From the NCBI RefSeq assembly GCF_001641085.1, contig NZ_LXIE01000001.1:186001-250000 (forward strand): a DNA stretch of 64,000 nt, written 5' to 3'. Shown here piece by piece: positions 11,277-15,155 of this stretch. Made by a program: the position numbers and the translations under genes. Each line of letters opens with the position of its first letter. Within the stretch, counting starts at the first letter, position 1. This DNA comes from Aequorivita soesokkakensis. GTDB taxonomy: Bacteria > Bacteroidota > Bacteroidia > Flavobacteriales > Flavobacteriaceae. Below the pieces are notes generated by a model. That model worked only from the letters and a program-made list of their open reading frames with translations. It ran no database searches and was not told where the DNA came from.

Positions 11277-13106
11277 TTACATTTTAAGGTAAAGTTCTTT
11301 CAATTTTGTAGGTGTAATAATAGTTTCCCAATTACTGCCCAAAGCGTTTTCCCAAAGCGGAACCATACCCATTGCAACGGTAATCATAGTATCCATCTGT
11401 GCTTCTGAAAGGTTTTTACAAATTCCCTGTGGAATTTCCACATTGTGTTTTTCAACCATTTCTTTGAAAAGCGCCACATCTTTTGGATAAAATTCTCCCA
11501 AATGTTGAAAAACAATGCAATTACCTACCCCGTGTTTTGTTCCTAGCACGTAGCCCAGTCCATAGCTCATTGCATGTGCAACACCCACTTGTGAATAGGC
11601 AATACTCATACCACCATGCCAGGAAGCCATCATTAATTTGGCTCGCGATTCTTCTTCTGAAAGAGTGTCGCCCAAGAATATTTCCATACAAAGATCATAG
11701 GCTTTTTCGCCATAACTTTGGCTAAATGCATTCAAAAATGTGCCATTTAGCGATTCAACACAATGAATAAAACAATCCATTCCTGTATAAAACCATTGGT
11801 TTTTTGGAACACCCTTAGTCAGCGCTGGGTCAAGAATTACTTGATCAAAAGGCGTGAAATCACTATTGATCCCCAATTTACGCACAGGCCCTGTTAAAAC
11901 AGTTGTTCGGGAAACTTCAGCGCCAGTTCCAGAAATTGTTGGCACGCCCACATGATAAACGGCTTTTTGTTTCACCAAATCCCAGCCTTGATAATCGGCT
12001 GCACTTCCTTTGTTTATAAGCATAATTGAAACTGCCTTTGCCAAATCCATCACTGTACCGCCGCCAATGCCTATAATTCCGGATGGCGTGTGAATGAATT
12101 CTGCTTTAATATCATTGACCAAATTATCTACTTGTGAGGTTTTCGGTTCTTCTTCTGCAGAAACAAAAATTAATTTATCATTGAAGCGAAGTTGTATGCG
12201 GTCCAAAAACTCTTTATTCTCTTTAAAAACGTCATCCACTAAAAATATAAACGGTGCTTTTTCCTGTTTTTGTGAAGAGAGAATAGACGAAAGTTGGTCA
12301 AAACAGCCTTCCCCAAAAACCACTTTGGGCACCATTGGGAAATTCCTGAATTTATTATTGACGGTATCTGGCTTACTATCTTTTAAAATTTTATTCGCTT
12401 TTACAAGGTCTTCCGGCGTGTCAATTTCAACCCCTGTAGTATTTGAAACGGCCATTTTTATATTTTTCCCGTATTCCAAATAGCGGATGCATTCTATTTT
12501 TTCCACAGCCTCCAAAGATCGCATCGGCAAACGGTAAAAATCCATAATTGCTTGCTTTCTGAAGGCGTAGATACCTTTATGCTTGTAATATTGAATATCC
12601 ACATTTTTATCACGTGGATATGGAATGGGCGAACGTGAAAAATAAAGTGCAAAATTATTTTTGTCAACAATTACTTTCACGCAATTTGGGTCGCTAATCT
12701 CCTTCCAATCGTGGATTTCAGTCATTAAAGATGCCAGATCTATTTTATCGGCATCCGGCTCGTTGAATACTGCAAGCACTTTTTCCAGCCCTTCCCTACT
12801 TGTAAAAGGTTCGTCTCCCTGCACATTTACCACTATATCCACGTCCATGTTTTCAACGGCCTCAGCTATACGATCACTGCCGCAGTCGTGTTCTTTTTGG
12901 CTCATAATGGCTTTTCCTCCGTTAGTTTCAATTTCATTAAAAATTACATCACTATCAGTCACCACATAAACTTCATCAAAAAGATTTGTTGCTTTTGCGG
13001 CTTCGTAAGTTCTTACTATCACGGGTTTTCCGCCCAAATCCTGCATTAATTTTCCTGGAAATCTAGAGGCGCCGTATCGCGCGGGAATCATTGCTATTAT
13101 TTTCAA
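11277..13106 (-). CDS. kdsB: Fused 3-deoxy-manno-octulosonate cytidylyltransferase (KdsB) and KdnB-like Kdo 8-oxidase
   Basis: The 609-residue protein joins two enzymes. Residues 1-242 are a full-length Kds[26 protein letters not shown] near 94-101, and [10 protein letters not shown] at the end; it makes the CMP-activated Kdo-type sugar. Residues ~252-609 are an iron-containing alcohol dehydrogenase with [12 protein letters not shown] near 348-359 and metal ligands Asp444, His448, His511, His525. Its length and sequence ([36 protein letters not shown]) closely resemble KdnB of Shewanella, which oxidises C8 of Kdo on the way to 8-amino-Kdo. The start is TTG at 13106, giving the standard KdsB N-terminus. 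The transaminase KdnA is not in the window. A promoter lies at 13129-13157. Confidence 0.9.
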
Positions 13107-13128: not shown

Positions 13129-13157
13129 CAAAAATAAGAAGATTAAGTTCTTGGCAA
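13129..13157 (-). promoter_or_regulatory. Promoter of the kdsB-kdnB / acyltransferase operon
   Basis: On the minus strand TATTTTTG (13129-13136) matches TAnnTTTG and a TTG (13155-13157) lies 18 bases upstream, the spacing of Bacteroidota housekeeping promoters. The expected start near 13122-13125 leaves a leader of about 17 bases before the TTG start codon. Confidence 0.75.
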
Positions 13158-13721
13158 TCGTTTTTTTCGAAGCTTTTTATAAAACCTAAAAATTACAAAA
13201 AACAAAAATATAACTAAGATGAATGCTATAATGGGAATAAAAATAGAGGCGATTGCCATAACGATGGAAGTACCAGTTTCCACAGTACTTAATACAGGAT
13301 TTGCAACGCCGCCCGTGGTTGTACTAGAAGTAAGCCTAGCTGCGGCTGCATTTCCTTTTATTGCAGCTGCGGTACCTCCACCAGCGATTATGGCTAAGGC
13401 CCAAGTAACTGTGGGATTTAAATCCGTAACTGTTGCTACCATAACGGCCGTTCCTGCAAGGGTAGCTAAGGGCAAAGCTATTGTATCCAGCAAATTATCC
13501 AACCAAGGAATATAATACCCAAAAATTTCTATCAAAGTAGCAACTCCCATTGTGATTACCGCAGTAAGGCTTCCCACCCAATGCCAGCTTTCATTTAGAG
13601 GAATAATATCATAATATCCCGCCAAGCTTAAAACTAACAAAGGCAAAAAAACACGGAAACCAACAGCAGCCGCTAAACCGATGCCCAAAAAGATACTGAT
13701 TGTTATTTCAAAAGTTTCCAT
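13143..13721 (-). CDS. DUF4126 family integral membrane protein
   Basis: A 192-residue membrane protein with about five hydrophobic helices and the DUF4126 hallmarks: an early GLAAAVGFRVFLPLLVLSLAG, a WLDNLLDTIALPLATLAGT segment and the glycine/alanine-rich AGGGTAAAIKGNAAAARL loop. The C-terminus is strongly basic (FRFYKKLRKKRLPRT), which predicts a cytoplasmic tail. No function is known for the family. It stands 6 bases after the helicase stop on the same strand, so it is probably read from the helicase promoter, while kdsB-kdnB downstream has its own promoter that overlaps the end of this gene. Confidence 0.85.
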   Translation of the reverse strand: METFEITISIFLGIGLAAAVGFRVFLPLLVLSLAGYYDIIPLNESWHWVGSLTAVITMGVATLIEIFGYYIPWLDNLLDTIALPLATLAGTAVMVATVTDLNPTVTWALAIIAGGGTAAAIKGNAAAARLTSSTTTGGVANPVLSTVETGTSIVMAIASIFIPIIAFILVIFLFFVIFRFYKKLRKKRLPRT

Positions 13722-13727
13722 TAACTA

Positions 13728-15155
13728 CTAAGCTACAAAAAAATCATCCTTAAACCCTATTAAATACAATTTTTCACGGGCGCGCGTAACGGCGGTATAA
13801 AGCCAGCGAAGATATTCTCTGTCTATTCCATTTGGAAGATAGGGTTGTTCAACAAACACAGTGTTCCACTGCCCTCCCTGTGATTTATGGCAGGTAATGG
13901 CATAGCTGAACTTAACTTGAAGCGCGTTGAAATATTTATTGTTTTTAACAGCCAGAAATTTCTTGTATTTTGATTTTTCATTGGCGTAATCCTTCATCAC
14001 TTCTTGATACAGTTTGTTTGATTCATCATAAGTGAGCGATGGGCTTTCAGAAGTAAGTGTATCTAAAAGAAGTACTGTCTCCAAAGGTTTCATATTAGGA
14101 TAATCCACCATCCTTATTTTCACTTCAGCAAAACGAAAACCGTACAATTCCTTAAAAGCGAAAATTTCCAAAACCTCTACAATATCACCATTGGCTATAA
14201 ACCCAGCTTCACTGGCATTGTCCACCCAAAAATAATTGTTCTTCACCACCATTAAATAATCGCCCGCAGAAAGTTCCGATTCCTGGAAAAGAATACGTTC
14301 ACGGATGCTTTGATTATAAAGGTTTGCGCGTTTATTGGAGCGAACAATTATAACAGTGTCCTCATTTCCCAAAGTTGAATAGCTATCATTAATGGCATCC
14401 ATGATTTCCTGTCCGTCAGTTGGACGAATGATGTCTGGAAAATCAATTCCTGAAAATTTAAACGCTTCATAAAGTTCATCATCCAAACGCTCACGGATTT
14501 TTGTTGCGTTCTCTAAAATACCGCTGTCTTTTTGCTGCCGTACTACTTCATCCAATTCAAGAAGAATTACTTCACGGTTGTATTGGTTTTCCAAAACCCT
14601 GGCGTCCAATGCTGGGCTTATGGAAAGATGCACAGGTGGTAATTGCGCAGAATCGCCAATCAACAAAAGTTTACAATTGTTTCCGCTGTAAACATATTGC
14701 ATCAAATCATCAAGCAATGAACCGTTTTCAAAAAGTTTTGAATCTTGATTTATATCTGGAATCATGGAAGCTTCATCCACAATAAAAATAGTATCACGGT
14801 GTTTATTTTCCTGTAAAGTGAAGGAAATGGAACCTCCCTTTCCACTTTTTGGAAAATATATTTTTTTATGAATTGTAAAAGCTTGCTTGTTTGAATAATT
14901 ACTGATAACCTTCGCAGCCCTTCCCGTTGGGGCAAGTAGCACAGATTTCTTTTTTGCTTTCGCTAAATTTTTCACTAAAGAACCTACAATAGTTGTTTTC
15001 CCGGTTCCAGCATATCCTTTCAATAAAAAGGTTTCATTTTTGTTCGTGCCCAGCACAAATTTCGCTAATAATTGAAGTGCAATATCCTGCTTGGTAGTTG
15101 TGTTATGTGGAAAATCATTTTTTAAAAAACTGTAAAATTCTGATACATTCATCAT
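13728..15155 (-). CDS. RecD/Dda-like superfamily 1B DNA helicase
   Basis: A 475-residue ATPase with the order of SF1 helicase motifs: Walker A GYAGTGKTT (47-55), LAPTGRAAK (Ia), IFIVDEASM (II, near 127), LLIGDSAQLPPVH (III), and near the C-terminus YAITCHKSQGGQWNTV (V) and LYTAVTRAREKLYLIG (VI, UvrD_C_2 type). This is the short RecD-like helicase common in Flavobacteria, acting 5' to 3' by analogy with RecD2 and phage Dda; it lacks the long N-terminal helical region of RecD2. No RecB or RecC partner is next to it. The start may be either of two adjacent Met codons. Confidence 0.88.
   Translation of the reverse strand: MMNVSEFYSFLKNDFPHNTTTKQDIALQLLAKFVLGTNKNETFLLKGYAGTGKTTIVGSLVKNLAKAKKKSVLLAPTGRAAKVISNYSNKQAFTIHKKIYFPKSGKGGSISFTLQENKHRDTIFIVDEASMIPDINQDSKLFENGSLLDDLMQYVYSGNNCKLLLIGDSAQLPPVHLSISPALDARVLENQYNREVILLELDEVVRQQKDSGILENATKIRERLDDELYEAFKFSGIDFPDIIRPTDGQEIMDAINDSYSTLGNEDTVIIVRSNKRANLYNQSIRERILFQESELSAGDYLMVVKNNYFWVDNASEAGFIANGDIVEVLEIFAFKELYGFRFAEVKIRMVDYPNMKPLETVLLLDTLTSESPSLTYDESNKLYQEVMKDYANEKSKYKKFLAVKNNKYFNALQVKFSYAITCHKSQGGQWNTVFVEQPYLPNGIDREYLRWLYTAVTRAREKLYLIGFKDDFFVA

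Follow-up and report, generated by a model that had tools for sequence, protein, structure and literature searches.

The window analyzed here, a stretch of 64,000 nucleotides from Aequorivita soesokkakensis, holds on its minus strand a gene in which a KdsB-type CMP-Kdo synthetase runs on into an iron-type alcohol dehydrogenase (Fe-ADH) of the KdnB type (Table 1). In the fusion protein, Pfam finds CTP_transf_3 at residues 4-216 (6e-50) and Fe-ADH at 261-427 (2e-27), together with ADH_Fe_C. The KdsB half scores above the NCBIfam cut-offs of TIGR00466 kdsB (193.3 bits vs. 155.2) and NF003952 (265.8 vs. 193); three further KdsB models of NCBIfam match, each under its own cut-off. The solved structures closest to the Fe-ADH half are 3rf7 (4e-131) and Shewanella KdnB 5k8c (1e-127, 429 bits), and the next solved family is far weaker (90 bits, 1e-24). 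The initial annotation had read the gene as KdsB and a KdnB-like iron-ADH in one polypeptide, with which the Pfam, NCBIfam and 5k8c matches agree. It had also pointed out D444, H448, H511 and H525 in the iron-ADH half; they are found as it stated, are invariant among 42 aligned fusion proteins, and align with those of KdnB 5k8c. From what is generally known of the Fe-ADH family, we take this set of one Asp and three His to be the metal ligands.

The catalytic Asp pair of the KdsB half is Asp98 (motif QGDEP) and Asp229 (motif IDTPED), likewise invariant in 42 fusions. The catalytic metal-binding pair is described as Asp100/Asp235 for E. coli L-CKS (PMC2901514; PMC3149649), Asp235 binding the catalytic magnesium (PMC2901514), and the Aquifex KdsB equivalents are given as D95 and D219 (PMC3149649). 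The half thus shares its family and its metal-binding Asp with the CMP-Kdo synthetases KdsB and KpsU (E. coli 3k8d/1vh1, KpsU 1gq9, A. aeolicus 2y6p), but differs from them in being fused to an oxidase and in having Glu at position 227, where the five solved KdsB/KpsU enzymes aligned have Gly. The C-terminal half belongs to the same sequence family as Shewanella oneidensis KdnB (5k8c) and has the same predicted metal ligands; in contrast to Shewanella, KdnB is here fused to KdsB, KdnA is encoded elsewhere in the genome, and the phylum is a different one.

Table 1. Features of the KdsB-KdnB fusion gene and its neighbors, with positions in the window.
Feature	Position	Strand	Remarks
PlsC-like acyltransferase gene, 178 aa	10722..11258	minus	next gene downstream, 18 bases from fusion
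KdsB-KdnB fusion gene	11277..13106	minus	TTG start, 609 aa, single uninterrupted frame 13106->11277
KdnB-type Kdo 8-oxidase domain (predicted), residues 252-609 and stop codon	11277..12353	minus	solved-structure match
His525 codon, predicted metal ligand	11532..11534	minus	invariant in 42 fusions; aligned to 5k8c
His511 codon, predicted metal ligand	11574..11576	minus	invariant in 42 fusions; aligned to 5k8c
His448 codon, predicted metal ligand	11763..11765	minus	invariant in 42 fusions; aligned to 5k8c
Asp444 codon, predicted metal ligand	11775..11777	minus	invariant in 42 fusions; aligned to 5k8c
Linker, residues 244-251 (8 residues)	12354..12377	minus	
KdsB (CMP-Kdo/Kdo8N synthetase) domain, residues 1-243	12378..13106	minus	Pfam, NCBIfam
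Asp229 codon	12420..12422	minus	aligned to metal ligand Asp235 of E. coli KdsB
Glu227 codon, proposed Kdo8N-specificity residue of KdsB	12426..12428	minus	aligns to Gly233 of E. coli KdsB
DUF4126 protein gene	13143..13721	minus	next gene upstream
SF1 helicase gene	13728..15155	minus	conserved upstream neighbor; best NCBIfam match RecD2, under cut-off

Gene neighborhood and host genome

The acyltransferase gene that the initial annotation had noted after the fusion lies there; among the best 80 of 515 loci, 55 fused ones have full flanks, and 53 of these include a homolog. A homolog is also present at 9 of 37 KdnB-less loci, so the acyltransferase is not tied to 8-amino-Kdo (Kdo8N). In many relatives, fused or not, the DUF4126 and helicase genes are likewise found upstream of kdsB.

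We read 16 unfused loci that have both genes. In ten of them (L155-L158, L164-L169), from other Flavobacteriaceae, the order is helicase, kdsB, HAD hydrolase and kdnB; DUF4126 follows the helicase in six, and the acyltransferase follows kdnB in nine. These operons have the same genes in the same order as around the fusion, except for the HAD gene between kdsB and kdnB. No such HAD gene was found at any of the 78 fused loci (from the best 80 of 515), whose flanks reached at most 6 kb and were sometimes short. At L160 (genome G029) kdnA, kdsB, HAD and kdnB stand in one row; kdnA-kdsB-kdnB are contiguous at L159 (G313) and L170 (G196), and at L154, L161 and L172 kdsB adjoins kdnB with no HAD gene between. 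Sixty further separate kdnB loci, each read for 3 kb upstream, all showed kdsB and the HAD gene (60/60) and none KdnA (0/60).

Twelve of the 23 fused genomes described below have an HAD homolog (~50% identity) elsewhere, and in the remaining 11 none was found at 1e-10. KdsC was considered as the identity of the HAD gene and set aside: several HAD families matched, and the general HAD-IA model alone was over its cut-off. Since 11 of the 23 fused genomes have no homolog and only HAD-IA scores over its cut-off, the HAD gene is placed outside our core explanation. Frames of 850-945 aa covering kdsB and kdnB (e.g., in G182 and G130) suggested a three-domain fusion; the DNA shows separate kdsB, HAD and kdnB genes that overlap or abut.

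The A. soesokkakensis genome comprises 3.19 Mb in 51 contigs and is 99.77% complete. CTP_transf_3 and Fe-ADH each match it once, within the fusion; these profiles found no second KdsB and no other Fe-ADH in it. A KdnA gene (L006, C1:372664-373854) lies in the same genome, 174 kb from the fusion. Its product matches Shewanella KdnA 5k8b, whose molecule name is Kdo8N transaminase, at 1e-151 over 395 residues, and the next solved family at only 5e-52. It was picked among 11 DegT-family matches in the genome, of which the five strongest were read and this one compared with solved structures. A WaaA-like Kdo transferase (L002) is also present, over the cut-off of Pfam PF04413 and under those of the NCBIfam models. 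The initial annotation had proposed a count of KdsB genes and a search for KdnA, and would have seen a stand-alone second KdsB or a missing KdnA as evidence against its reading; because the sole KdsB found is that of the fusion and a clear KdnA is present, neither objection arises from the genome.

Spread and history of the fusion

Genome contigs were scanned for the fusion, and the best 80 of 515 relatives were retained. Both halves lie in one open frame at 78 of these 80 loci; at the other two, L088 and L089, stop codons in frame separate them. The codon at the start of the match is TTG in 61 of the 80, ATG in 12 and GTG in two, with no start codon in five; the linker has eight residues in 70 of the 78 fused loci and 7-17 in the others. 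The nearest named relatives are Aequorivita species, with protein identities reaching 93%. Species with the fusion are also found in Salegentibacter and Ulvibacter. The fusion is real and not an accident of assembly, because it forms one open frame at 78 of 80 related loci and is present in 23 of 199 genomes sampled from the family.

KdnB is found in 149 of these 199 Flavobacteriaceae genomes: fused in 23 and as a separate gene in 126, every one of the latter scoring at least 499 bits. The remaining 50 are without it. A search for the fusion across Bacteroidota had been suggested by the initial annotation; the fusion does recur, in the 23 family genomes, but 126 of the 149 KdnB-bearing ones are unfused. 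KdnA was found in 148 of the 149 KdnB-bearing genomes and in none of the other 50 (E up to 1e-60). The 2x2 table of KdnA and KdnB gives p ~1e-46, the relatives counted in it not being independent. At most nine KdnA candidates were scored per genome, except that for eight of the 50 genomes lacking KdnB every candidate was scored in a second round. The pathway genes are not special to the fused lineage, occurring in 148 of the 199 sampled genomes. As in Shewanella, KdnA and KdnB occur together, and in several Bacteroidota they are further associated with kdsB.

A few genomes depart from this pattern. G477 has KdnB (71%), and no KdnA was found in it even with all candidates scored; in G436 the KdnA gene is cut by the end of a contig. 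Searched at 1e-10, the 50 KdnB-less genomes gave two KdnB-like cases, G118 and G369, along with weak Fe-ADHs of 26-28% identity, and nothing else. G118 has the usual operon (L164) with a diverged KdnB (44%) and a KdsB with Gly227; no KdnA was found in this genome, and its KdnB may have another job. G369, a 2.2 Mb genome, has a broken kdnA in two pieces and a truncated kdnB (L261:1504-3176), again with Gly227 in KdsB, and looks like a case of pathway loss.

In a set of 296 Bacteroidota genomes, 83 have a KdnA match at 1e-60. Nineteen of these matches are full-length (at least 43% identity), all but one of them in the same class. A further 64, of which 63 are in one family (f17), are partial, at 39-49%, and were not counted as KdnA. 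Two f17 genomes have a KdnB-like protein of 44% (G145, C52:80567-81661; G169, C1:267734-268843). In G249 a single row (L209:647-5615) contains kdnA, kdnB, a KdsA-like gene, an HAD-like gene and kdsB, the KdsA and HAD genes being named by eye; this row supports a link of KdnAB to Kdo synthesis. Its KdnA and KdnB are 44-48% identical to the type in the window, making it a second, distant Kdo8N-like lineage. KdnB had no match to plasmids at 1e-40. A 98 kb viral contig (IMG/VR IMGVR_UViG_3300017971_000228; L323:3986-8712) encodes a KdnB-like protein, 39% identical to the query, followed by a DegT-type aminotransferase-like ORF and then a PseG-like ORF (both named by eye), possibly from a virus able to synthesize an amino sugar itself.

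A KdnB tree of 58 rows needs two changes between fused and separate. Its 28 fused rows and the separate L154, L088 and L089 form one group (98/96), and these three separate rows are nested inside it (96/86), their fork shared with 21 fused rows. The tree is fitted best by one fusion and one later split. In the quick KdsB tree, the unfused L159 and L160 fall inside the fused group with support of 86-87, below the level that earns a star in that tree; given this placement, two fusions or gene exchange might be considered, which makes the history less clear. The abutting unfused genes of G431, L088 and L089, with no HAD gene, had been candidates for pre-fusion ancestors. Because the KdnB tree nests them in the fused group, a later split is the better explanation; in G431 kdsB and kdnB are in different frames. 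In G115, from another family, kdsB and kdnB share one frame with a stop between them, which shows how easily such a fusion could form.

Residue 227 of KdsB

The KdsB alignment covered 168 loci with KdnB (81 fused, 81 separate, and 6 from other families) and 78 without, three odd cases being kept apart. For 88 of the 168, KdnA is confirmed in the genome concerned; the label of the remaining 80 (78 fused contigs, L088 and L089) comes from KdnB only. All 168 KdsBs from KdnB-bearing genomes or contigs have Glu at residue 227, and the 78 without KdnB have Gly (65), Ala (6), Glu (5), Ser (1) or Pro (1) there. This is the best-separating of the 243 KdsB columns, with 6% overlap compared with 15 and 18% for the columns at 142 and 177. 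The odd cases have Gly (G118, G369) and Glu (G477). Lys177 gives a partial separation (160 of the 168 have K, 58 of the 78 have I); it was set aside as a pathway marker and treated as lineage-specific, Ile being present in all 6 KdnB-bearing rows from other families.

Glu227 without KdnB occurs in a related group (L216, L218, L220 and L222; 96 in the KdsB tree) and in G160. In the group it reflects either a recent loss of KdnA and KdnB or another use of the residue. As five KdnB-less genomes keep Glu, its presence is no proof of Kdo8N use, and neither is Glu the sole form at this position, since the KdsB of the KdnA-KdnB lineage in G249 (L209, motif PSVDSPGD) has Ser there, by eye. Asp229, two residues on, aligns with the Mg-binding Asp235, which places residue 227, by prediction, in the active site. 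From there it may reach C8 of the sugar, and Glu227 is a candidate for the switch that sets the specificity of KdsB for Kdo8N.

The distribution of both traits was followed on a KdsB tree of 186 of 249 rows (18 of the 81 fused and all others), quickly built with residue 227 blanked and rooted at the midpoint. The sample was that chosen by the preceding searches, with G118 counted as KdnB-less and G477 as KdnB-bearing. Each label (KdnB, Glu227) needs 11 changes. In one reconstruction 13 branches bear changes: four gain both traits, five lose both, and four change one only. A model of dependent traits beats independence on this one tree (LR 56.7, 4 degrees of freedom, p 1.4e-11).

It could be that Glu227 and KdnAB are merely inherited together and that the residue has no role in the choice of sugar, a reading we regard as quite unlikely. 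It would account for the clustering of both traits on the KdsB tree, and is favored as well by the five KdnB-less genomes that retain Glu and by the Ser of G249. It is opposed by the joint losses of Glu and KdnB at L224 (G338), L164 (G118), L227 (G372), L226/L251/L253 and L204 (G017), by the joint gains on four further branches of the one reconstruction, and by the rank of residue 227 among the 243 columns.

A predicted Kdo8N pathway

KdnB is described as the catalyst of the first step to Kdo8N (PMC5125639). We are highly confident in a reading of the fusion as a bifunctional enzyme of this pathway, working with a separate KdnA and supplying CMP-Kdo8N to the core, with Glu227 favoring Kdo8N and with the fusion itself of secondary importance. 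For the activities of the two halves, the role of Glu227 and the structure of the LPS, we infer the following. The C-terminal half would oxidize Kdo at C8, like Shewanella KdnB, and KdnA would aminate C8 of the oxidized Kdo. The N-terminal half, the sole KdsB found in the genome, would then activate Kdo8N to CMP-Kdo8N for WaaA, and the inner core would carry Kdo8N in place, or mostly in place, of Kdo. Glu227, which is Gly in Kdo-type enzymes, probably binds the C8 ammonium and makes KdsB prefer Kdo8N. The fusion would be a refinement, fixing the two activities at 1:1 amounts and keeping them close, rather than what makes the pathway work. In Shewanella, KdnB reportedly uses oxygen, KdsB is said to prefer Kdo8N, and a deletion strain is said to be more sensitive to polymyxin.

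The initial annotation had taken the fusion to suggest channeling. In such a scheme the fusion would hold steps 1 and 3, KdnA would dock between them, and the reactive 8-oxo-Kdo would be passed along unreleased. The conservation of the fusion in many genera, with a short linker (mostly eight residues among the best 80 of 515), speaks for this; however, the claim found no support, because KdnA, the middle enzyme, is itself unfused and encoded 174 kb away and because most KdnB-bearing relatives (126 of 149) manage without the fusion. The lineage of G431, L088 and L089 also seems to have split the fusion again, and we consider channeling unlikely. We think it very improbable that Kdo8N is made for another surface glycan, such as a capsule or O-chain, while the inner core of the LPS keeps normal Kdo: the literature offered no LPS structure of this organism to set against it, but with no KdsB besides the fused one found in the genome, core Kdo must pass through it. 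Still another reading, to which we give hardly any credence, has the KdnB half making oxidized Kdo for a different partner, with an amino sugar not the end product. It would fit G477, where KdnB but no KdnA was found, and G118, which has a diverged KdnB in the usual operon, again with no KdnA; against it, KdnA accompanies KdnB in 148 of 149 cases, and the exceptional G118, with Gly227, is without the Glu residue too. The pathway genes most likely make CMP-8-amino-Kdo for LPS in most of the Flavobacteriaceae.

Kdo8N has been called a hallmark of the genus Shewanella (PMC6357163) and a novel linking unit of Shewanella LPS (PMC3210612). For the Kdo8N of Shewanella HM13, the C8 signal is given as 44.8 ppm. 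For a member of the Flavobacteriaceae, Bizionia argentinensis, the available portion of a report on its LPS speaks of Kdo only (PMC9478572). Among the titles of open-access journal papers listed, none dealt with Kdo8N in Bacteroidota or with the fusion of KdsB to KdnB, and none reported an LPS structure with Kdo8N from Flavobacteriaceae. We rate the enzymes and the chemistry as known; new are the domain fusion, a specificity residue that can be tested, and the much wider range predicted.

On balance we lean toward a picture in which Kdo8N is normal in the inner core of most Flavobacteriaceae, a Gly to Glu227 switch has flipped repeatedly along with KdnAB, and one clade has fused the oxidase to the gatekeeper. 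Kdo is nearly universal at the junction of lipid A and core, and KdsB is a usually essential enzyme. If the picture is true, then in the fused clade the core sugar cannot be activated without the oxidase also being made. With the Glu227 rule, the sugar used could be predicted from a genome's sequence, and substrate choice by KdsB could be probed by changing one residue. Should most Flavobacteriaceae use the amino form, they might differ in surface charge, in phage receptors and in how they respond to cationic peptides, and Kdo-counting LPS assays might give misleading values for them. Kdo8N may be much commoner than has been thought, as the related genomes suggest.
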